A stretch of 64,000 nucleotides of DNA from a virus: the IMG/VR virus record IMGVR_UViG_3300036761_003779, positions 1-64,000 of that record; one strand, 5' to 3'. The notes under the pieces were generated by a model. It was not told the origin of the DNA and ran no database searches. It was given only the letters and a program-made list of their open reading frames with translations. Made by a program: the position numbers and the translations under genes. Positions 1 to 44,288 of this stretch are shown here, piece after piece. The stretch's first letter is position 1; every line of letters begins with the position of its first letter.

Positions 1-2268
1 CCCGTCCTCGTACATCCCCGCGGTCACGTAGCCCTCATGCCCCGCGATGTCGAACTTGTGCGTCCGGGAGGCCCGCTCCCGCGGGAGCTTCTCCCGCCCC
101 GGCGCCCGGGCAACCGCCGGCGCGACCCACTCCGCCGCCTTCTGCCCATGCCCGTTCTCCGGCCGCTTGACCGGCGCCAGGGGCTGCGCCCGCTTGCAGC
201 CGTCCCGGTAGACCGTGACCGCCTTCAGGCCCGCCTTCCACGCGGTCCGGTAGACGTTGGCCACGTCCTCCGACGTGGCCTCCTCCGGCAGGTTGACCGT
301 CTTCGAGACCGACCCGGAGAGGAACGGCTGGACCGCCGCCACCATCCCGACGTGCCCGCGCCAGGAGATCTGGCGCCCGGCCGCGTCCGCCGCCGCGCAG
401 TCGAAGACCGGCAGATCCTCCGGGAGGACCTCCGAGCCCTCCAGCGTCCCCCTCTCCCGCAGGTGCTTCAGCGTCAGCTCGACCTCCACCCCATCGTACT
501 CCATCCGCCCCAGCGCCGCGCGGATCGAGCCGTTCTCCATGAGCAGCTCACCGCCCCCGGAGAGCTTCTTCCGGGTGAGGAGGGCGAAGCCCGGCTCGAC
601 CCCGGTCGTGTCGCAGTCGAGCATGAAGGAGATCGTCCCCGTGGGCGCCAGGAGCGTCACCTGCGCGTTCCGATATCCAGAGTCCTCCCCATCCCGGAGG
701 GCGTCCGCCCAGGCGGCCCGCGCCGCCTCCAGGGTCTCGAGCCGCGCCAGCCCGGCGTCGATGCCCCGGAGGGCGTCCGCGTGGTTCTGGAGGACCGCCC
801 GCATTGGCCCGGCCTCGTAGCCCTCGAAGGGGTCGCGCGCCCGCGCCAGCCGCGCGCTCTCCCGGTAGGCGACGCCCGTCATCAGGGCGGTGATTGCCGC
901 CGCCTCCGCCCGCCCCGCCGTCGAGTCGTAGGGGAGCCCGGCCGCCATCAGGTAGGCGCCCAGGTTCGCGTACCCGAGCCCGAGCGGTCGGAAGCGCCGG
1001 GAGTTCTCCCCGATCCGCTTCGTGGGGTACTTGGCCCGGTCGACCAGGACCTCCTGCGCGGTGATCGAGACCTCCACCGCCGCGGAGAAGGCCGCCGCGT
1101 CGAGCCCGCCGTCCGCGCGCTGGAACTTCCGGAGGTTGAGGGAGGCGAGGTTGCATGCCGAGTGGTCGAGGAATGCGAACTCCGCGCAGGGGTTCGTGGC
1201 GTTGATGCGCCCCGCTCCCGGGCAAGTGTGCCAGAAGTTGGCCGCGTCGTCGAACTGGAGGCCCGGGTCCCCGCAGGCGTGGGCGGCCGCCACAATCTCG
1301 TCCCAGACCTCCCGCGCCGGCACGGTCCGCAGGACCTCCCCGGAGGAGCGGGCGAGGAGCGGCCAGTCCGCGCCCCGCTCCGCCGCCTCCATGAAGGCGT
1401 CCGTCACCCGGACCGCGTTGTTGGCGTTCTGGTAGCAGACCGAGGCGTCCCCGTCGAGCCCGGCGCCGAAGCCCGCCTCCTCGAGCGCCCGCGCCTTCCG
1501 CTCCTCCGAGACCTTGCAGCGGGCGAAGTCGAGGACGTCCGGGTGGTCCACGTTGAGGATGACGATCTTGGCCGCGCGCCGCGTCTTCCCCCCGCTCTTG
1601 ATGACGCCCGCGAAGGCGTCGTAGCCCCGCATGAAGGAGACCGGCCCGGAGGCGGTCCCGCCGCCGTGGAGCGGCTCCTCCTTCCCCCGGAGCGGGGAGA
1701 GGTTCACGCCCGCGCCGGACCCGCCCTTGAAGATGAGCCCCTCCGTCGTGGCCAGCTCGAGGATGCTCTCCATCGAGTCCTCGACCGCGTTGATGAAGCA
1801 GCCCGAGCACTGCGGCCGCGCCTCGACGCCGACGTTGAACCAGACCGGGGAGTTGAAGGAGAGCCGCTGCGTGAGGAGGAGGAAGACCAGGTCATCCCGG
1901 AAGGCGTCCCGGTGGGCCCGGTCTGGGAGGTAGCCGTCCGCCAGGCCCCAGTCCGCGATGGCGTCGGCCACGCGCGCCACCAGCTGCCGGACCGACCCCT
2001 CCCGCTCCACCGTCCCGAGGCGCCCGCGGAAATACTTGGAGGCGACGACGTTCACCGCCATCTGGCTCCAGCCCTCCGGCGCCTCGACGTCCCGCTGCTC
2101 GAAGAGGACCGCGCCGTCCGCGCCCTCGATCCGCGCCGTCCGAGTTGTCCACGGACCCGCGGCGTCCCAGACGTCCCCGTCCTCCGGGGCAAACCGCCTC
2201 CGGGCCTGGGTCGCTCTCCTCTCCGACTGCGGCGCCTCATCGACAACAACGGACGGGCTGCTCTCCAT
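1..2268 (-). CDS. nrdJ: Adenosylcobalamin-dependent (class II) ribonucleotide reductase, partial
   Basis: This gene encodes a B12-dependent ribonucleotide reductase that makes deoxyribonucleotides without oxygen-dependent radical chemistry. The frame is open from an ATG preceded by GGAGGAGATTCC to the left window edge, giving 756 codons without the C-terminus. Hallmarks are visible in order: FNSPVWFNVG, then CSGCFINAVEDSMESIL and the FKGGSGAGVNLSPLRG loop in the first third, the active-site block NPCAEFAFLDHSACNLASL in the middle, and HKFDIAGHEGYVTAG at the truncated end. These match the NrdJ family (usual length about 740-1000 residues). It is the last gene of the leftward array visible here and would supply dNTPs for replication. 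No intein is seen in the visible part. Confidence 0.93.
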   Translation of the reverse strand, partial: MESSPSVVVDEAPQSERRATQARRRFAPEDGDVWDAAGPWTTRTARIEGADGAVLFEQRDVEAPEGWSQMAVNVVASKYFRGRLGTVEREGSVRQLVARVADAIADWGLADGYLPDRAHRDAFRDDLVFLLLTQRLSFNSPVWFNVGVEARPQCSGCFINAVEDSMESILELATTEGLIFKGGSGAGVNLSPLRGKEEPLHGGGTASGPVSFMRGYDAFAGVIKSGGKTRRAAKIVILNVDHPDVLDFARCKVSEERKARALEEAGFGAGLDGDASVCYQNANNAVRVTDAFMEAAERGADWPLLARSSGEVLRTVPAREVWDEIVAAAHACGDPGLQFDDAANFWHTCPGAGRINATNPCAEFAFLDHSACNLASLNLRKFQRADGGLDAAAFSAAVEVSITAQEVLVDRAKYPTKRIGENSRRFRPLGLGYANLGAYLMAAGLPYDSTAGRAEAAAITALMTGVAYRESARLARARDPFEGYEAGPMRAVLQNHADALRGIDAGLARLETLEAARAAWADALRDGEDSGYRNAQVTLLAPTGTISFMLDCDTTGVEPGFALLTRKKLSGGGELLMENGSIRAALGRMEYDGVEVELTLKHLRERGTLEGSEVLPEDLPVFDCAAADAAGRQISWRGHVGMVAAVQPFLSGSVSKTVNLPEEATSEDVANVYRTAWKAGLKAVTVYRDGCKRAQPLAPVKRPENGHGQKAAEWVAPAVARAPGREKLPRERASRTHKFDIAGHEGYVTAGMYEDG

Positions 2269-2288
2269 GGAATCTCCTCCCGGGTTTG

Positions 2289-2642
2289 CTAGTACCCCAG
2301 CACGTCCAGGCGCCGGAGGTAGTGAAGGCGGAACGTCTCGAGGGTCTTGTCCGTTGCGGGCCTGCTCTCGATCTCCTCGTACACGAAGCGCGCGACCTCC
2401 CCCGCGATGTGCCTGTCCTCTTTGGCCAGGGCATTGATGAAGGGCGCCACGTCGAGGATCTCCCGGTCCAGGTGAGACCAGTCGATCAGCCGCTTCATCT
2501 CCTCCAGGGGGTAGCGCCGCGCAAAGGACGGGCGCTGCCAGCGCCCGAAGCGCGCCTCGAAGTCCCCGTCCCGCTCCGTGAGTTTCCCCAGCCGCTCCAC
2601 GGCCAGGTCCACGAGCGCGCCCGGGGTCGTCAGCTTTGTCAT
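2289..2642 (-). CDS. Hypothetical protein, 117 aa
   Basis: I do not recognise this protein. It is a soluble, mostly helical, charged 117-residue product starting MTKLTTPGALVDLAVERLG with no membrane segment or metal motif. The ATG start is preceded by GGGAGAGTAGAG; an upstream extension of the frame would overlap the preceding gene and is not favoured. It lies two bases after the stop of the zinc-ribbon gene and 20 bases before the ribonucleotide reductase, so it is probably cotranscribed with both. Confidence 0.7.
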   Translation of the reverse strand: MTKLTTPGALVDLAVERLGKLTERDGDFEARFGRWQRPSFARRYPLEEMKRLIDWSHLDREILDVAPFINALAKEDRHIAGEVARFVYEEIESRPATDKTLETFRLHYLRRLDVLGY

Positions 2643-2644
2643 CT

Positions 2645-2857
2645 CTACTCTCCCGCGCAGGTCTTGCAGACCAGTATCCTGGACTGACCCGGTCCGGCTC
2701 CCGGCGGGATTGTCTGAAGCTCCTGCACCGGGAACTCCCGCCCGCAGCGGAAGCACGCGCACGCGCGCGCCCCGAGGAGCGCGCCCGGTTCCGCGGCCGG
2801 GTCGCTCCTCCTGACGGACGTTTGCCGAACCTGTCTGCCGGAGAGCTGGAGCTTCAA
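2645..2857 (-). CDS. Small zinc-ribbon-like protein, 70 aa
   Basis: A 70-residue protein with two knuckles, CFRC near residue 36 and CKTC near the C-terminus, about 30 residues apart. That spacing fits a zinc ribbon. The only good start is a TTG with GAGGG just upstream, which is less certain than an ATG. Function is unknown; such small ribbons in phages often bind nucleic acid or host proteins, but nothing here shows the partner. It sits in a row of small genes between the SDR gene and nrdJ. Confidence 0.55.
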   Translation of the reverse strand: MKLQLSGRQVRQTSVRRSDPAAEPGALLGARACACFRCGREFPVQELQTIPPGAGPGQSRILVCKTCAGE

Positions 2858-2922
2858 GGGGTCCCTCGCAACGGAGGTTCCAGGCTACCGCCGCCCCCTC
2901 CCCCGCCGCCAGGAAGATGCCT

Positions 2923-3555
2923 TCATTGACCCGGCGGAGGCGGGAGGACGCCCGGCGGGGGGTCCCCCGGGATCCATAGCCGCCGCTCCGCCTTCTGGAC
3001 CTCCGCGATCCGCTCCTTGAGCTTCACGAAGATGGGCCGGATCTGCTCCGGGATCTTCTCAGCCCCCGCCGCCTCGATCGCCGCCAGGACCTCCGCCGCG
3101 CGCTGCGGCTCCTTGGCCTGGAGGAGGAGGGAGATGGCGAGCGTCCCGTCCTGGATCTCGCTTCCCAGTTCCCGGGCGATCTCCCAGAGCCGCTCCCCCG
3201 TCTTCCGCCGCTCCTCCAGGTCGTCCCCCTCCGCCGTCCGCGGCCGCGCCGCCACCTGGTGGAGCCCCTTCCGCTCCACCATCAGGTCCTGCTTCCTCTT
3301 CAGCGCCTCCCGCGCGCCCTCGTCCCAGCCCGGGTGCTTCTTGTCCAGGAAGGTCTCCACGGAGGCCACGAGGAGGGTGGTCGCATTGCTCGCGGTCATG
3401 AGGGAGTTCATCGCCTTGAAGACATTATCCAGGCCATGCTCGACGTGGTTCAGCCTGGCCTCCTGCGTCTTCTGCTTCTCTCGGACCTCCTCCTCGAACG
3501 ACTTCTTCTTCTGGCGCGCGCCCTTGATGGCGCGCAGGCTACCCTTGTCCGGCAT
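2923..3555 (-). CDS. Hypothetical coiled-coil protein, 210 aa
   Basis: No family recognised. The 210-residue product opens with a basic stretch (SLRAIKGARQKKKSFEEEV), continues in long charged helices with coiled-coil character to about residue 190, and ends in a proline-rich tail. The ATG at 3555 is chosen because GGAGGAG lies six bases upstream; the longer TTG form would start inside that ribosome-binding site. It overlaps the end of the upstream gene by 17 bases, so translation is probably coupled. Confidence 0.72.
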   Translation of the reverse strand: MPDKGSLRAIKGARQKKKSFEEEVREKQKTQEARLNHVEHGLDNVFKAMNSLMTASNATTLLVASVETFLDKKHPGWDEGAREALKRKQDLMVERKGLHQVAARPRTAEGDDLEERRKTGERLWEIARELGSEIQDGTLAISLLLQAKEPQRAAEVLAAIEAAGAEKIPEQIRPIFVKLKERIAEVQKAERRLWIPGDPPPGVLPPPPGQ

Positions 3556-37166: not shown

Positions 37167-39941
37167 TCAGGACAGTCGGCGGAACGGGAGGGCGCGGATC
37201 CGCGCCTGGAAGAACCGCCCCTTGCTCCCCGCCGCGAGTAGCTCCGGGAGGAGCGGCCCGGCGCCCGGGTAGACGTACTCGGCGCCCTTCCTGAACCGGA
37301 CGAGGAGGTCCTCCCCGTCCCGGCGGACCGCCGCGAGGTTCTCGCTCTCGACCGCGACCCAGCCGCCCGCCGCCGACGCCGGCCCGGGCTCAGCCTCCAG
37401 CCCCCGGAGCAGCTCCGGCGTCAGCTCGACCCGCTCCCCGGCCCGCTCCGAGAACCAGGCCCGGTGCGGCGCCTGGACCGCGTTCCGGATGGCCCGGGCG
37501 TGCGACCGGAGCGGCCGGACGAGGCGGTCCCAGAAGTAGAAGTACACGGCGTCGACCTTCCCCTCGTGCCGACGCTTGAGGCGCCCGACCTGCTGCGTGA
37601 ACCGCCCCGGGTTTGCCGCCGCCGGCGTCATGCCGAAGCCGCGGTCGAGCCGCTTCACGTCCATCCCCTCGTCCGCCACCGTCGTCCCGACCGCCACGCG
37701 GAGGGTCCCGTCCTCGAGCCCCTCCGCCGTCCGGTCCTGCTCCTTCGCGTCCCGCCCGCCCATGAGGCGCCCGGCGTGGACGCCCCGCCGCTTCAGCCAC
37801 GCCTGGATCTCGAGGCACATCTCCCGGCGGTCCGCGAGGAGGAGGCACGTCCGCCCGGCGGCGATCTCCGGGAGGAGGTACTCGAGGACCCGCGCGCGCC
37901 GGCGCTCGTCCCGCGTGGCCGCGTCGAGCATCTCCGCGTAGGTGTTCAGCGGCCCCGCAAAGTGGGTCTCCTTCGCCCAGCGGCGGACCGCCGCCGTCCC
38001 CGTCTCCCGCTCCAGCCGCTCGAAGCCGGCCGCCTCCAGCTCCGCCTCCCGGTTCAGGTCGAAGGCGAAGTCCGTCGGGACCACGACCACGTCCACGGGG
38101 ACGATGCGGTTGAAGCGGTCCAGGTCCTCGTCCCGGATCTCGAAGAGGACCCGCGGCCCGCGCGCCGTCCCGCCGCCCCGCTTCGGGACGTACTCGACCC
38201 CGAAGGCGTCGAAGAACAGCGGCTCCTTCTTGTCCCGCCGGTGCGGCGTGGCGGTGGCCGCCAGCCGGTTCCGAGCCGGGAATAAACTGATACATTCCGA
38301 GAACGTAGACGCGGCGCAATGGTGCGCCTCGTCAAGTATCAGCGTCCCCCAGCGGTTCACCCAGCCCGGGTCCGCCTTGACCTTGTTCAGGACGGAGCGG
38401 ATCATCCCGACGATCAGGTCCCCGTCCCGCTTCTCCCGCCCGTAGAGGACACCGATCCGCCGCTCCGGGACGGAGAACCGCGCCGCCGCCTTCCCCACCC
38501 ACTGCCGGAGGATCCGCTCCGTGTGGCAGAGCACCAGCGTCCGCTCCCCGAGGTCCGAGATGGCCTTGAGCAGGATCTCCGTCTTCCCGGAGTTGTGATG
38601 CCAGAGACCTCCGGCCCAGTAGTTCCCAAAGACCGGGACGTTGAAGTCAAAGTACGGCTCCGCCGGGACCGCCCGCGCGGAGAGGACCCGGACGAACTCC
38701 ACTGGACCCGGGTTATAGGTCCCTGTTAAGATGGACCCACCTAGAGGTGACTCGGATGAGAGAACGCCAGATGTGGGACAAAGCGCGCCGTCAGCGAGCC
38801 GCGGAGCTGTACCGCTCCGGACTCCTCCTAGAGGAGGTGGCGTCCGCCCTTGGGACGAGTCGGAACCGCGTCCGGGAGGCGCTCCGAACGCTTGGGGTGG
38901 AGGTTCGCCCGACTGCGTTCCAGAAGGGCGGGCTGACCGGTCGGAGGAACCCGAATTGGAAGAGCGATCGCCGGGTGGATGAGGATGGATACGTCCTCCT
39001 TCGGGTCCCGGGACACCCGGACGCAAAGCCGGGGGGATGGGTACTCGAGCACCGCCTGGTGATGGAGGGTCTTCTTGGGCGCCGCCTGACCGCGGAGGAA
39101 GTGGTCCATCACCGAAACGGAGATCGAGGAGACAACCGTCCGGAGAACCTCCAGCCGTTCGACTCCAATGGAGCGCATCTTGCGCATGAGCTTCGAGGGA
39201 GGACGCCGAACTGGACGGAAGGAGGACGCCAACGGACCCTGGACGGCCTGGAGCGGTGGCGTGGAGAGCTTCATAGATCTCACGGGCGGAGAGGAAATGG
39301 TGGCCGTCCCAGAAGAGGTGTCCCGGCCTGACGCGGAAGGTCCCCACCTCCGTCTCGATCTCCACGAGCTGCGCCGCCTCGAACATCACCGGCGGGAGCG
39401 CCGCGGAGACCACGGGACCGTTCGGTCCCATTGCCCAGACGTGGAAGGGCGCGCCCTCCGCCCAGCGCTGGAGGGCGGTTACATCGCTCCCGTCCGTTGG
39501 GTCTCGAATAACGGTAGATCCGTGGATACAAGCGCACGGGCCGACGAGGATGCCGGCGCGCCGGGCGACGAGCGCCTTGGCCGCGCTCCGCTGGTCCGGC
39601 CCCAGCTCCCACTCCGGCGGGCTCCGGTAGACGAAGGGGAGCGGCCCGGTCCCGCGGACCGTCCGGTCCACGGGCTCGATCTCCGCGCCGACCCGCGCCA
39701 GGAGCCGCTGGAGGACGACCCAGCCGCCGCGCGGGAGGAGGAGGTCCTCCCCCTCGTCCAGCACCAGGCTGAGCTTCCGCGGGGTCTCCCCCGTCCAGAA
39801 GCCCATGTTCGACTTCTTCCAGAACTCCGGGTTGTCCACCTCGAACGCCTCCCGGACCTCCCGGAGGGAGAGCCCGGCGTCCTTGGCCGCGCGCTTGCTC
39901 AGGCGGAGGTGGGCGTCGACGACGACCTTCAGCTTGACCAT
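37167..39941 (-). CDS. UvsW-like superfamily 2 helicase precursor containing an intein
   Basis: After splicing the extein would be about 611 residues. It is an SF2 helicase of the UvsW/XPB type, remodelling forks and recombination intermediates. N-terminal domain about residues 1-115; Q-like WELGPDQRSAAKALVARRAG; Walker A is GPCA joined to SGKTEILLKAI across the intein; DEAH motif TLILDEAHHCAAST; motif III LAATATPHRRDKK; motif V VAVGTTVADEGMDVKRLD; motif VI RFTQQVGRLKRRHEGK. The ATG at 39941 has no Shine-Dalgarno site in the 31-base gap, unusual in this genome. A plus-strand HNH gene lies inside the intein segment. Confidence 0.88.
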   Translation of the reverse strand: MVKLKVVVDAHLRLSKRAAKDAGLSLREVREAFEVDNPEFWKKSNMGFWTGETPRKLSLVLDEGEDLLLPRGGWVVLQRLLARVGAEIEPVDRTVRGTGPLPFVYRSPPEWELGPDQRSAAKALVARRAGILVGPCACIHGSTVIRDPTDGSDVTALQRWAEGAPFHVWAMGPNGPVVSAALPPVMFEAAQLVEIETEVGTFRVRPGHLFWDGHHFLSAREIYEALHATAPGRPGSVGVLLPSSSASSLEAHAQDALHWSRTAGGSPDGCLLDLRFGDGPLPPRSGGAQEDPPSPGGARVPIPPALRPGVPGPEGGRIHPHPPGDRSSNSGSSDRSARPSGTQSGEPPPQAFGAPPGRGSDSSQGRTPPPLGGVRSGTAPRLADGALCPTSGVLSSESPLGGSILTGTYNPGPVEFVRVLSARAVPAEPYFDFNVPVFGNYWAGGLWHHNSGKTEILLKAISDLGERTLVLCHTERILRQWVGKAAARFSVPERRIGVLYGREKRDGDLIVGMIRSVLNKVKADPGWVNRWGTLILDEAHHCAASTFSECISLFPARNRLAATATPHRRDKKEPLFFDAFGVEYVPKRGGGTARGPRVLFEIRDEDLDRFNRIVPVDVVVVPTDFAFDLNREAELEAAGFERLERETGTAAVRRWAKETHFAGPLNTYAEMLDAATRDERRRARVLEYLLPEIAAGRTCLLLADRREMCLEIQAWLKRRGVHAGRLMGGRDAKEQDRTAEGLEDGTLRVAVGTTVADEGMDVKRLDRGFGMTPAAANPGRFTQQVGRLKRRHEGKVDAVYFYFWDRLVRPLRSHARAIRNAVQAPHRAWFSERAGERVELTPELLRGLEAEPGPASAAGGWVAVESENLAAVRRDGEDLLVRFRKGAEYVYPGAGPLLPELLAAGSKGRFFQARIRALPFRRLS
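38592..39530 (-). other. Intein in UvsW-like helicase (313 aa) whose central region is antisense to an HNH gene
   Basis: Residues 138-450 of the precursor, inserted in the Walker A loop. It starts with Cys (CIHGSTVIRDPTDG) and ends GGLWHHN before Ser, the normal class 1 termini. The N-terminal splicing part includes VEIETEVGTFRVRPGHLFWD (block B-like His) and the C-terminal part YFDFNVPVFGNYWAGGLW (block F). Between them about 190 residues are low-complexity Pro/Gly/Ser-rich sequence, which is the antisense reading of the HNH gene at 38756-39331. No sense-strand endonuclease motif is present. The frame has no stop. Confidence 0.85.
38756..39331 (+). CDS. HNH homing endonuclease, plus strand, antisense within the intein
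   Basis: A 191-residue HNH enzyme with its own Shine-Dalgarno site (AGAGGTGA, five bases before ATG). Residues about 14-45 form a helix-turn-helix (LLLEEVASALGTSRNRVREA). The HNH core is LEHRLVMEGLLGRRLTAEEV followed by VHHRNGDRGDNRPENLQPFD at 117-136. The last dozen residues (NGGRPRRGVPA) are antisense to the intein block B region, so the gene end has adopted intein DNA. A plus-strand TGGACC and TAAGAT pair with an 18-base spacer lies just upstream and may be a promoter. It belongs to a different HNH subgroup from the other four. Confidence 0.88.
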   Translation: MRERQMWDKARRQRAAELYRSGLLLEEVASALGTSRNRVREALRTLGVEVRPTAFQKGGLTGRRNPNWKSDRRVDEDGYVLLRVPGHPDAKPGGWVLEHRLVMEGLLGRRLTAEEVVHHRNGDRGDNRPENLQPFDSNGAHLAHELRGRTPNWTEGGRQRTLDGLERWRGELHRSHGRRGNGGRPRRGVPA

Positions 39942-41190: not shown

Positions 41191-41391
41191 CTAGGAATTG
41201 AGCCTGAACGCTTTGACCGCCCTGGCCCTCAGTTCGGCGATGCAGTTGACGCAGAGGGTCGGGGCGGGGGGCGGTCCGGTCCGAACGCAGGCGTGGCACC
41301 CTTCCTTACCGCACTCGCAGACCCGCTTCTCCAGGGCGGACTCGCTCTGGGTTTTGCAGTTTCCGCACTTGTTGTCAGCCCAATTTGGCAT
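41191..41391 (-). CDS. Cysteine-rich zinc-finger-like protein, 66 aa
   Basis: A 66-residue protein with many cysteines (KCGNCKTQ, VCECGKEGCHAC, LCVNC), able to form two zinc sites. Function unknown. ATG with AAAGGA upstream. It stands alone between the tail fibre gene and the small membrane protein. The 126 bases after it (41065-41190) hold no clear gene, terminator or promoter. Confidence 0.6.
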   Translation of the reverse strand: MPNWADNKCGNCKTQSESALEKRVCECGKEGCHACVRTGPPPAPTLCVNCIAELRARAVKAFRLNS

Positions 41392-41441
41392 TGGTCACGT
41401 CCTTTCAGATTGCTCTCCGGGACCGGCTCCCGGTCTCCGGG

Positions 41442-44288
41442 TTACACCACGTTTCTAGCCTGGACCCTCGCGAGGGAGAAGTTGCTGGGGTCGTTCTTGT
41501 CGGCGGCGGCAACCGCCGCCCAGCCACCCAGAACGGCGGCGGCACCGTCGAACGTGAGGTCCCCGATCGCCGTGCCCGTCAGGGTGATCGCGACCCCGGC
41601 GGTCTCCAGGTACACCTGACTCGCGTCCCGGGCGTAGACCCCGGAGAGGGCGTTCAGGCCCGTGATGGCGCCCTCGAAGTAGACGGTCGAGTTGCGGAGG
41701 TACACCCCGTGCGGGCTTCCGGAGAAGTCGCAGTCCTTGAAGGCCGCCGCCCCTCGGCTCATGTACACGCCGGGACTGGGCGGGGTCACCGAACCCCAGG
41801 GGATGAACCCACCGAAGAAGCTGTCGGAGTTCAGGTTGTAGAAGTCGGAGTAGGCGCCGTTGAAGTCCAGCTCCTTGATCCGGGTGCCGAAGCCGGTGAA
41901 GAACCCCGAGTTGTGCGCGGCGTTGAGGGCAGCGTGGTTGAAGAACCCGCCGTCGATGGTGTGGAAGCCGTCGTTCCACTCGTAGAGGGCGTCGAACATG
42001 GCGGTGACGCCGTCTCCACCCGAACTCCCCACGCCCGCCTGGTTGGCCGGGATCGTGACCGACAGGTCCAGCGTCGCGGGGTCGTACACCGTGAAACCCA
42101 GGGTGGTCCCGCCCTTGCAGAGGATGACCCCAAACCTCCAGATGGTGTACAGGTTCCCCAGGACGCAGGCGGACATCACCACGTCGTTCTTCCCTCCGCG
42201 CCCGCACACGTTGAAGGGCGCGAACCCCGTGAACGTGATCCGCTGGAAAAGAACGGTCCCATCCCCCTCCAGGGCGACCAAGTTGCCGAGGTGGTAGCTG
42301 AAGTCGTAGGGAGCGGGTGCCGTGAGGGCGATCTCGGTCGCAGGCTGGACGATGCGGAACGTGGCCCCGGGACCGGGGTCGACCGAGAAGAGTACAGTCG
42401 GGATGACGGTCGTGGCGATGTTGGCCCGGACGGTGCGGAGGTCCCCGAGCGCCGGACCGCTGGTGATCTCCACCATCAGACCCGTGAACTGGTCCACGGG
42501 GAATGTCAAGGTGGAGAGGCCGATCGACGTCAGGCTGTTGATGTCGGAGACCCAGGGGGAGCCGGCGTTGTCGGCAACCACGGTCAGGCCCGCGCCGCCG
42601 TCGACGAGGATGTGGGCGGTGTCGGCAACGTCCCGCTCGAGGGTGTCGTTCCAGGCCCAGTCGAAGCCGGGACCCTCCAGGTTGACGTGGACGTTGTGCC
42701 GGACGTAGTGGGGGATCTTGGCGTAGACCCCCGCCCTCGTCTGCACCGCCGTGGCCGGCGTCAGCCCGTCGTTGGCGTCGTCCCCCGTGACGCTGTTGGC
42801 GTAGAGTACCATGTCGGCGACGGTTGCGCTGTGGAACCCGGGGTCATTCTTCGTGACGTAAGGGTTGGTCGCGGCGGGGGTTCCATAGCTTCCAGCGAGA
42901 GCCGCCTTCTCCCCAGCGGAGGGATCGTTGGGGGTTCCCGTGAACGTCATCGAGCCGGTGCCAGCCACGTACCCCTCGACGTGGCTGTTGCGGAGCGTGA
43001 CGACGCCGTTGTTCGTGTGGGTTCCTCTCACGAAGCTGTCGTAGGCAAGGAGGGTGAGCCCGGCCGGAACCGTCACCGCGCCGGCCGCGCCCCACCGGCA
43101 CGCCTGCGGGGCCACGGTGTAGAGGGAGGTCCCGCCGATGGCGTACGAGACCGCTCCGCTCTGGAACACGCCGTTGGCGAGCAGCGTGCCGTCCTTGCCG
43201 GTCGACGGGATGGGCAGGGTGTCGTTCATCGTGAGGCTGAGCGCGCCCTGGAGCTGCCCGCCCGCGATGTAGGACCAGGCCACGTTCACGAAGGCGATGG
43301 CGCACTCGCTGTACGGGGTGTCCATCGAGAAGTTGTTCACGCAGGTCACGGCCAGCGTGCCGGTCCCCGTGAACTTGCAGTGGTCCCAGAACACGTCGTT
43401 GAACGCGCTCGCGGGTCCGGCTGGGCCGGTGATGACCACTGGCTTGCTGAAGATGAGCCCGCTCACCAGCAGAGCCTTGAGGTTGCTGTTCAGCGCGGCG
43501 GACTGGAGCGCGTTACCGGCGACCGGGTTGATGGACACGTAGCCGTCGGCCTGGAGCTTGAGGTACTGGAGACCGAGGTGCTCGAGGAGCAGGTTCTCCA
43601 CGTAGATGCCGGAGGCGATCTCGATGACGTGGTAGGCCGCCGAGCCCAGCGCGGCGACCGCGTTGATCGCCGCCTGGATGGTCTTGTACGGTCGCTCGGC
43701 GGACCCGTCGGCGGTGTAGACGTCCGCCCGGCTGCCGTCAACGTGGTGCTTGAACTGCTCCGGGAAGATCGTGTCCAGCTTGGTCCGGTACTCGTTCCCG
43801 GTGGCCGGCGTGCCGTAGGTTCCGGCCAACGCTGCTTTCTCCCCCGCGGTTGGGATCGTCGAAATTGCGTCCGCGCCCCCGTCCTCATGGTCGCTCCCGT
43901 GGGTGTCCGGGATCTGCGGGTCCGCCGCCTGCCCGGAGAGCCCCGCGATCGAGATCTCGTCCGCGCCTCCGTCCTCGTGCGTCGAGGCGTGGAGACCGGG
44001 CGCCGGGCCGGAGACGGTCAGGCCCGGCGTGCTGTACTCCGGTTGACCGTCCCACTCGTAGTCGACGCTGGCGGCCTGCGCCTGGAGCGCCGTGAAGTCC
44101 CCGGCCTCGAGCCCCCCGCTGACGCCGTTGATCGGGTCAACGGTCAGACTTGGGCGAAGCTCCGAGGTGACGTTGACCGCCTGCCCGCGCGCCGGTGGCG
44201 CCGCTGAGGCGGGTATCTTCGGTGCGGATGGTTTCCCGCGCGCCAGTGTCACCCGTGAGCCGGTCTTGTTGAAAGCGTACAGTGCCAT
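41442..44288 (-). CDS. Tail fibre / receptor-binding protein with beta-helix repeats, 948 aa
   Basis: A large beta-rich protein. It starts with a short basic N-terminal domain (MALYAFNKTGSRVTLARG), then linker units with HEDGGADEISIAGLSG and HEDGGADAISTI, typical of phage fibres, then two long parallel-beta-helix-like parts. Each follows a repeat of the form GEKAALAGxYGTPA (about residues 150 and 460). The first beta-helix is introduced by GSAERPYKTIQAAINAVAAL, a motif seen in pectate-lyase-like tailspikes. It is likely the receptor binder or a glycan-active spike. No catalytic residues are evident. ATG with AGAGAGGCTGAGA upstream. Confidence 0.75.
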   Translation of the reverse strand: MALYAFNKTGSRVTLARGKPSAPKIPASAAPPARGQAVNVTSELRPSLTVDPINGVSGGLEAGDFTALQAQAASVDYEWDGQPEYSTPGLTVSGPAPGLHASTHEDGGADEISIAGLSGQAADPQIPDTHGSDHEDGGADAISTIPTAGEKAALAGTYGTPATGNEYRTKLDTIFPEQFKHHVDGSRADVYTADGSAERPYKTIQAAINAVAALGSAAYHVIEIASGIYVENLLLEHLGLQYLKLQADGYVSINPVAGNALQSAALNSNLKALLVSGLIFSKPVVITGPAGPASAFNDVFWDHCKFTGTGTLAVTCVNNFSMDTPYSECAIAFVNVAWSYIAGGQLQGALSLTMNDTLPIPSTGKDGTLLANGVFQSGAVSYAIGGTSLYTVAPQACRWGAAGAVTVPAGLTLLAYDSFVRGTHTNNGVVTLRNSHVEGYVAGTGSMTFTGTPNDPSAGEKAALAGSYGTPAATNPYVTKNDPGFHSATVADMVLYANSVTGDDANDGLTPATAVQTRAGVYAKIPHYVRHNVHVNLEGPGFDWAWNDTLERDVADTAHILVDGGAGLTVVADNAGSPWVSDINSLTSIGLSTLTFPVDQFTGLMVEITSGPALGDLRTVRANIATTVIPTVLFSVDPGPGATFRIVQPATEIALTAPAPYDFSYHLGNLVALEGDGTVLFQRITFTGFAPFNVCGRGGKNDVVMSACVLGNLYTIWRFGVILCKGGTTLGFTVYDPATLDLSVTIPANQAGVGSSGGDGVTAMFDALYEWNDGFHTIDGGFFNHAALNAAHNSGFFTGFGTRIKELDFNGAYSDFYNLNSDSFFGGFIPWGSVTPPSPGVYMSRGAAAFKDCDFSGSPHGVYLRNSTVYFEGAITGLNALSGVYARDASQVYLETAGVAITLTGTAIGDLTFDGAAAVLGGWAAVAAADKNDPSNFSLARVQARNVV

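Follow-up and report, generated by a model that had tools for sequence, protein, structure and literature searches.

A helicase intein and the gene opposite it

The window (the whole 64,000-nucleotide stretch analysed here, bases 1-64000 of a 105,878-base virus record) encodes a helicase on its minus strand. The Walker A motif of this helicase is interrupted by an intein, and a gene for an HNH endonuclease lies antisense inside the intein (Table 1). The junction in the helicase ORF reads GPCA-[CIHGST...GLWHHN]-SGKTE. If the second Cys is counted as Cys1, the helicase regains GPCASGKT (GxxxxGKT). Exact empty sites (slash, insertion point) were found in homologous, uninterrupted helicases: GVCA/SGKTE in L001, which is 73% identical to the window helicase, and GPCS/SGKTE in L002 and L003, which are 65% identical. 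At the end of the helicase, 37191-37346 (-) resembles a KTSC domain (PF13619 at E 3.4e-4, short of the cutoff); the matching stretch in L001 is in a separate downstream ORF.

Table 1 Features of the helicase locus, in window coordinates
Feature	Position	Strand	Remarks
Helicase ORF, 924 aa	37167-39941	(-)	Frame open end to end
C-extein, UvsW-like SF2 helicase, first residues SGKTE	37167..38591	(-)	phrog_16 E=4e-36; ResIII, Helicase_C
Intein, 313 aa, Cys1 to Asn313, in Walker A motif	38592..39530	(-)	
Hint C-terminal part, residues 278-313, ...NYWAGGLWHHN	38592..38699	(-)	AlphaFold pLDDT about 95; alignment
Weak promoter-like TGGACC-N18-TAAGAT, candidate only	38703..38732	(+)	Upstream of HNH gene, z 1.74
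Disordered linker, intein residues 116-272	38715..39185	(-)	Mostly pLDDT < 50
Shine-Dalgarno AGAGGTGA	38743..38750	(+)	5 nt ahead of ATG 38756
HNH endonuclease gene, 191 aa, HTH + HNH_3 domain	38756..39331	(+)	Antisense inside intein
HNH catalytic core, residues 101-141, LVMEG..EEVVHHRNG..NRPENL..H	39056..39178	(+)	Invariant H119, N131, H141
Hint N-terminal part, residues 1-90, block A Cys1, block B His71	39261..39530	(-)	AlphaFold pLDDT about 95
N-extein of helicase, last residues GPCA	39531..39941	(-)	55% identity with L001 N-terminus

With Cys1, His312-Asn313 and Ser+1 present, the intein meets the requirements for class 1 splicing residues. Its block B reads RPGH, which retains His71 and has Arg where Thr is usual (TxxH); Thr is found in many relatives. 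Cys1, His71 and Asn313 are invariant in an alignment of 40 members. A sequence-only reading of this DNA had proposed an intein with Cys1, HHN and then Ser, together with an HNH gene antisense in its centre that has its own Shine-Dalgarno (SD) site and ATG; both proposals were confirmed at the coordinates originally given.

The AlphaFold model of the window intein, computed with 39 relatives, was ordered in the two Hint parts (pLDDT about 92-98) and largely below pLDDT 50 in the middle. For the structure alignments, rows from one phage-collection locus were left out. The intein has the Hint fold: its model matched solved mini-inteins in Foldseek, and a profile search matched the DnaB, RecA and DnaE inteins. 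Pfam Intein_splicing matched 36 of the 40 members; the window intein alone gave no match to it at E 0.01. These results bear on whether the insert is an intein at all, or rather a retained ShiLan-like insertion or an intron with a hidden HNH. ShiLan insertions likewise keep the host frame open while hiding an out-of-frame HNH (PMC11855218), and the HNHs of ShiLan methylases match the window HNH (about 52% over 78 residues). However, such an insertion would not account for the Hint fold, Cys1 and HHN-Ser, the HNH of the window lies on the opposite strand, and a retained insert would leave essential ATPases with a disrupted Walker A motif. An Rfam search over 38300-39800 found no intron family, and hence no sign of a group I ribozyme core. 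We therefore regard a retained insertion or intron as very unlikely and, given the Hint fold, the matches to solved inteins and the lack of an Rfam intron, reject it.

Most of the linker results from reading the HNH gene in antisense, and half of intein residues 101-275 are G, P or S. The earlier description of the intein centre as a low-complexity antisense reading does not cover the whole overlap: intein residues 67-259 face the HNH gene, whose 3' end overlaps the Hint part including block-B His71, which makes the overlap more than filler. The two frames are offset, as had been claimed, with first codon positions facing each other and HNH position 3 facing intein position 2.

The HNH protein matched HNH_3 (PF13392, E=1.4e-8, above its cutoff) and phrog_20891 (3e-26), and has the features of an HNH homing endonuclease, namely an HNH motif and an HTH DNA-binding domain. 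Its AlphaFold model is good (pLDDT 87.6) and places the HTH at the N-terminus. The core of the model resembles the homing endonuclease I-HmuI with a Foldseek probability of 0.97 but an E value of only 0.22, and Foldseek returned nothing for this model with E < 0.001. The catalytic residues listed in Table 1 are invariant across the HNH family alignment.

Recurrence of the antisense arrangement

In the window, no stop was seen in the intein frame opposite the HNH gene, where 2.1 were expected by codon resampling with helicase codon usage (P=0.037); permutation of the HNH's own codons gave a probability of 0.017 for no stop. Taken singly, the open intein frame of this locus with 70% GC is only weakly improbable. 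We judged such single-locus evidence as weak because long antisense ORFs are common in the GC-rich window. Elsewhere in it, a 940-codon ORF at 41385-44207 (+) lies antisense to a 948-codon ORF at 41442-44288 (-).

To find relatives, viral contigs and phage records were searched with the HNH, and the opposite strand was then checked. Searches of the collections give the best 80 matches and most records are metagenomic; the counts are therefore samples and not prevalences. At least 85 entries carried an HNH antisense within one long host ORF. They represent at least 49 distinct loci with GC contents of 29-71%, and in these 49 loci no antisense stop was observed, compared to 250 expected. All share the same offset phase, whereas the codon-aligned phase contains stops in most of them. 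In free-standing HNH relatives, the offset phase holds about the expected number of stops. The constraint extends to the protein. When the residue after Phe is Ile, Met, Thr, Asn or Lys, a stop on the opposite strand is inevitable; such a residue follows 0 of 153 Phe in embedded HNHs, compared to 12 of 49 in free-standing ones. Judged from these comparisons of sequences, the antisense arrangement looks maintained by selection.

The sequence-only reading had added that the openness is not a simple consequence of codon alignment. This is correct insofar as the phase is offset; however, it is the codon-aligned phase that is most easily kept open by synonymous choice. That all loci share a phase which is not the easiest to keep open points to common descent. 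The reading would have been refuted by a stop in the intein frame, or by an HNH without homologues at this position. Neither was encountered, as the frame is free of stops in the window and in all 49 loci, and the relatives carry the HNH antisense as well.

As a complement, we conducted a survey that was blind to the HNH, seeded with the Hint C-terminus of the antisense-HNH class and with duplicates removed. Among the inteins listed (at least 108), 89 contained one intact antisense HNH ORF; the others were 13 mini-inteins, five short inteins with HNH remnants and one different case (L144, see below). Neither a sense HNH nor a broken intein frame occurred among these 108. These inteins depart from the usual design of large inteins, with an in-frame sense endonuclease, the HNH being antisense in 89 of the 89 HNH-bearing inteins listed. 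All 94 HNH genes and remnants in this survey share one phase. Pooling both surveys yielded at least 114-122 distinct antisense-HNH sequences.

It is conceivable that the HNH landed backwards by chance in the mini-intein of a single phage, and that the frame stayed open by luck at 70% GC. The modest probability for the window locus and the frequent long antisense ORFs around it leave room for this, but the same layout and phase recur in 49 distinct loci with GC contents as low as 29%, and the HNH-blind survey listed 89 antisense and no sense cases. We find such an accident barely credible; the low-GC relatives, with 0 stops against 250 expected, rule out high GC as the source of a chance open frame.

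A comparison with related phages for intein alleles without the HNH had been suggested, and such alleles were found at the same sites. Between aligned blocks they are shorter than their full relatives by 588, 474, 444 and 489 nt. All of these gaps are multiples of three, which is what a need to preserve the intein frame would predict. In addition, five short inteins (L133, L181, L194, L208 and L211) retain only a piece of the HNH, which in four of the five is its C-terminal part, opposite Hint-N. By their sequences, these short inteins look like in-frame deletion scars.

The exceptional L144 has an intein of the same Hint class at about 2140-3110 (+) with an antisense nuclease at 2377-2967 (-). 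This nuclease is a PF01844 HNH with Zn-ribbon-like cysteines, unrelated to the HNH family of the window, and lies in the codon-aligned phase (0 stops, 3.8 expected, P=0.014). The unrelated family and the other phase imply that the antisense design probably arose twice. Nucleases would then have entered the antisense position on two or more occasions, although this rests on a single contig; a second case of the L144 type was not found, as the HNH of the sole other relative, L270, has no intein around it.

The identified host genes mostly encode terminase large subunits (TerL); two helicase types, an SbcC-like ATPase and a clamp loader were also found. In nearly all tabulated loci, the insertion site is the P-loop, either before [STC]GK[ST] or just after GK. 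Three terminases (L058:452-2860 (-), L051:1593-3758 (-) and L062:1163-3673 (-)) contain a second intein downstream of the P-loop intein with its antisense HNH. These second inteins show LAGLIDADG-like motifs in the sense frame, recognised by eye only. If the motifs are genuine, sense and antisense designs co-occur in one gene.

At least eight cultured Pectobacterium and Dickeya phages carry an antisense-HNH intein in TerL. In the Pectobacterium phage records examined, the terminase is labelled 'hypothetical protein' and no HNH gene is annotated. This includes Pectobacterium phage Abuela (L023, OP748251.2 35361-41492), where the unannotated HNH gene extends to within 40 nt of the 5' end of the intein. 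The empty site for the Abuela intein is present in the TerL of Klebsiella HSE3 (FVAGFG/TGKSQTM). The TerL genes of Abuela and Koroua are identical over long stretches. Most of their differences cluster within the intein and some 200 nt of the C-extein, and a few more lie near the 3' end. Such a pattern is what a conversion tract would leave, which makes this a possible origin. Across the family, distances between Hint domains are correlated with those between HNHs (rho 0.36, higher than in any of 2000 permutations), consistent with the two mostly travelling as a unit, as far as sequence distances can tell. Four further candidates, Pseudomonas phage BILI (H1), ctXG6705 (Manatee Spring), phiH and Streptomyces phage Jada, were rejected as carriers, as their HNHs are ordinary genes.

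An HNH scan of bacterial genomes found nothing, and a Hint scan of them returned one match, L268 (CAKZOI010000092.1, an Opitutae MAG contig). L268 contains a terminase with an antisense-HNH intein in the same layout, and may be a phage contig that was grouped into the MAG during binning.

Signs of HNH expression and function

The first HNH ATG is preceded by an SD match of at least 6 nt in 22% of cases, compared to 1.1% at other ATGs on the same strand (p=6e-12); for matches of at least 4 nt, the proportions are 61% and 20% (p=4e-10). The 120 nt upstream of the HNHs are mostly intein-coding on the other strand, and were compared with synonymous shuffles that preserve the intein sequence. They outscored these shuffles for sigma-70-like promoters (mean z 0.90, p=2.8e-7); the signal was null on the sense strand of this 120-nt stretch and in three other stretches. 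In the window itself, a strict promoter scan found no promoter for the HNH gene, and the candidate in Table 1 is not significant when taken alone. We read the HNH as a gene translated from a ribosome site of its own and probably transcribed from a promoter of its own as well.

Substitutions between close pairs fell on the three HNH codon positions in numbers of 1358/1602/3770, with the third dominant, and in these pairs the HNH proteins were 91% alike compared to 83% for the linkers. We treat this pattern as descriptive because close pairs share ancestry and are not independent.

The intein could still be real while its antisense HNH is an unexpressed, silent passenger or a decaying fossil. 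There is no transcript evidence for the HNH, and the mini-inteins with remnants indicate that it is sometimes lost. This reading is nevertheless unlikely in our judgement, as the HNH ORF is intact in all 89 full-size cases listed, its catalytic residues are invariant, it is accompanied by SD and promoter-like signals, and substitutions are biased to third positions.

A proposed composite element and its known counterparts

The reading that we hold with considerable confidence is that the two strands together encode a composite mobile intein. The intein anatomy, the empty sites, and the family and fold of the HNH were established by computation, as were the two-frame constraint, the SD and promoter-like signals, the recurrence of the layout and the in-frame losses of the HNH. 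Splicing, cleavage specificity and homing are inferred.

In such an element, the minus strand would yield a helicase precursor with a class 1 Hint intein, which would excise itself post-translationally and thereby restore the Walker A motif and the host ATPase. The plus strand of the intein middle would constitute a separate gene, whose product, an HTH-HNH homing endonuclease, would come from an antisense transcript that starts within or near the Hint-C coding region. By inference, this enzyme cleaves alleles lacking the intein at those same P-loop codons, and repair of the cut allele would copy the whole intein, HNH included. Read in antisense, the HNH gene would give a mostly disordered intein linker, on which the main demand would be the absence of stops. 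Evidence for homing is only indirect, comprising the sporadic presence of the intein, the empty sites and the possible conversion tract; the HNH could also aid spread by nicking or by acting at another site.

TerL is encoded by a late gene in well-studied tailed phages. A possible advantage of the composite intein, likewise inferred, would be early expression of the antisense gene in spite of the late timing of terL. The sequence-only reading had regarded a splicing element that outsources homing to the antisense strand as a new arrangement. This description fits all computations, but the arrangement is not unique to the window phage and is kept open across GC contents of 29-71% and several host genes. 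We lean, though only slightly, towards a broader proposal: a widespread class of phage P-loop inteins with an independently expressed antisense homing gene, which arose at least twice, uncouples the timing and dose of the endonuclease from late genes such as the terminase, and has an HNH that can be lost only by in-frame deletion. The last point would follow from double coding, which ties the partners together.

To our knowledge, all intein endonucleases described so far are themselves intein domains. We file the present element as a homing intein by its inferred behaviour, yet its endonuclease is not part of the intein; splicing and homing, both inferred functions, would be provided by separate products from opposite strands of the same DNA. 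No published report of an antisense endonuclease gene in an intein was found in the open-access literature, where the design thus appears undescribed so far. As an instance of antisense double coding, it is replicated unusually well and comes with natural controls in the free-standing HNH relatives, the HNH-less alleles and the sense-frame second inteins of some of the same terminases. The system makes it possible to test whether homing can follow a schedule separate from that of the host gene, and by what means overlapping genes remain open. Annotation misses antisense HNH genes, as in the Pectobacterium phage records.

Inteins in phage proteins, prominently in TerL, are familiar from phages including mycobacteriophages (PMC5050341), and searching that paper for terms denoting antisense or opposite-strand genes gave no match. 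The intein in the dCTP deaminase of cyanophage CL131 is a conventional large intein with an in-frame HNH_3 domain (PMC6293099). It resembles the window element in its Hint splicing domain, HNH_3 nuclease, phage host gene and interruption of a conserved protein, but its HNH is a sense, in-frame domain, while that of the window is a separate gene on the opposite strand. The ShiLan domain and other hidden, out-of-frame HNH insertions lie on the same strand as their host genes in phage methylases (PMC11855218). A related HNH, a host frame that stays open through the overlapping HNH gene and a sporadic distribution are common to both. Unlike ShiLan insertions, which have no Hint domain, no expected splicing and no detectable ribosome site, the window element combines an antisense HNH with a Hint intein and an SD site, and is not of the ShiLan type. 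Finally, the nuclear group I intron L2066 of Didymium carries an antisense homing gene, I-DsqI (PMC9548176). Both are self-splicing elements with an antisense homing gene that is expressed on its own, which for the window is inferred. However, the Didymium gene need not keep a protein frame open because its host element is an RNA-splicing ribozyme in rDNA, whereas the window element requires open reading frames on both strands.
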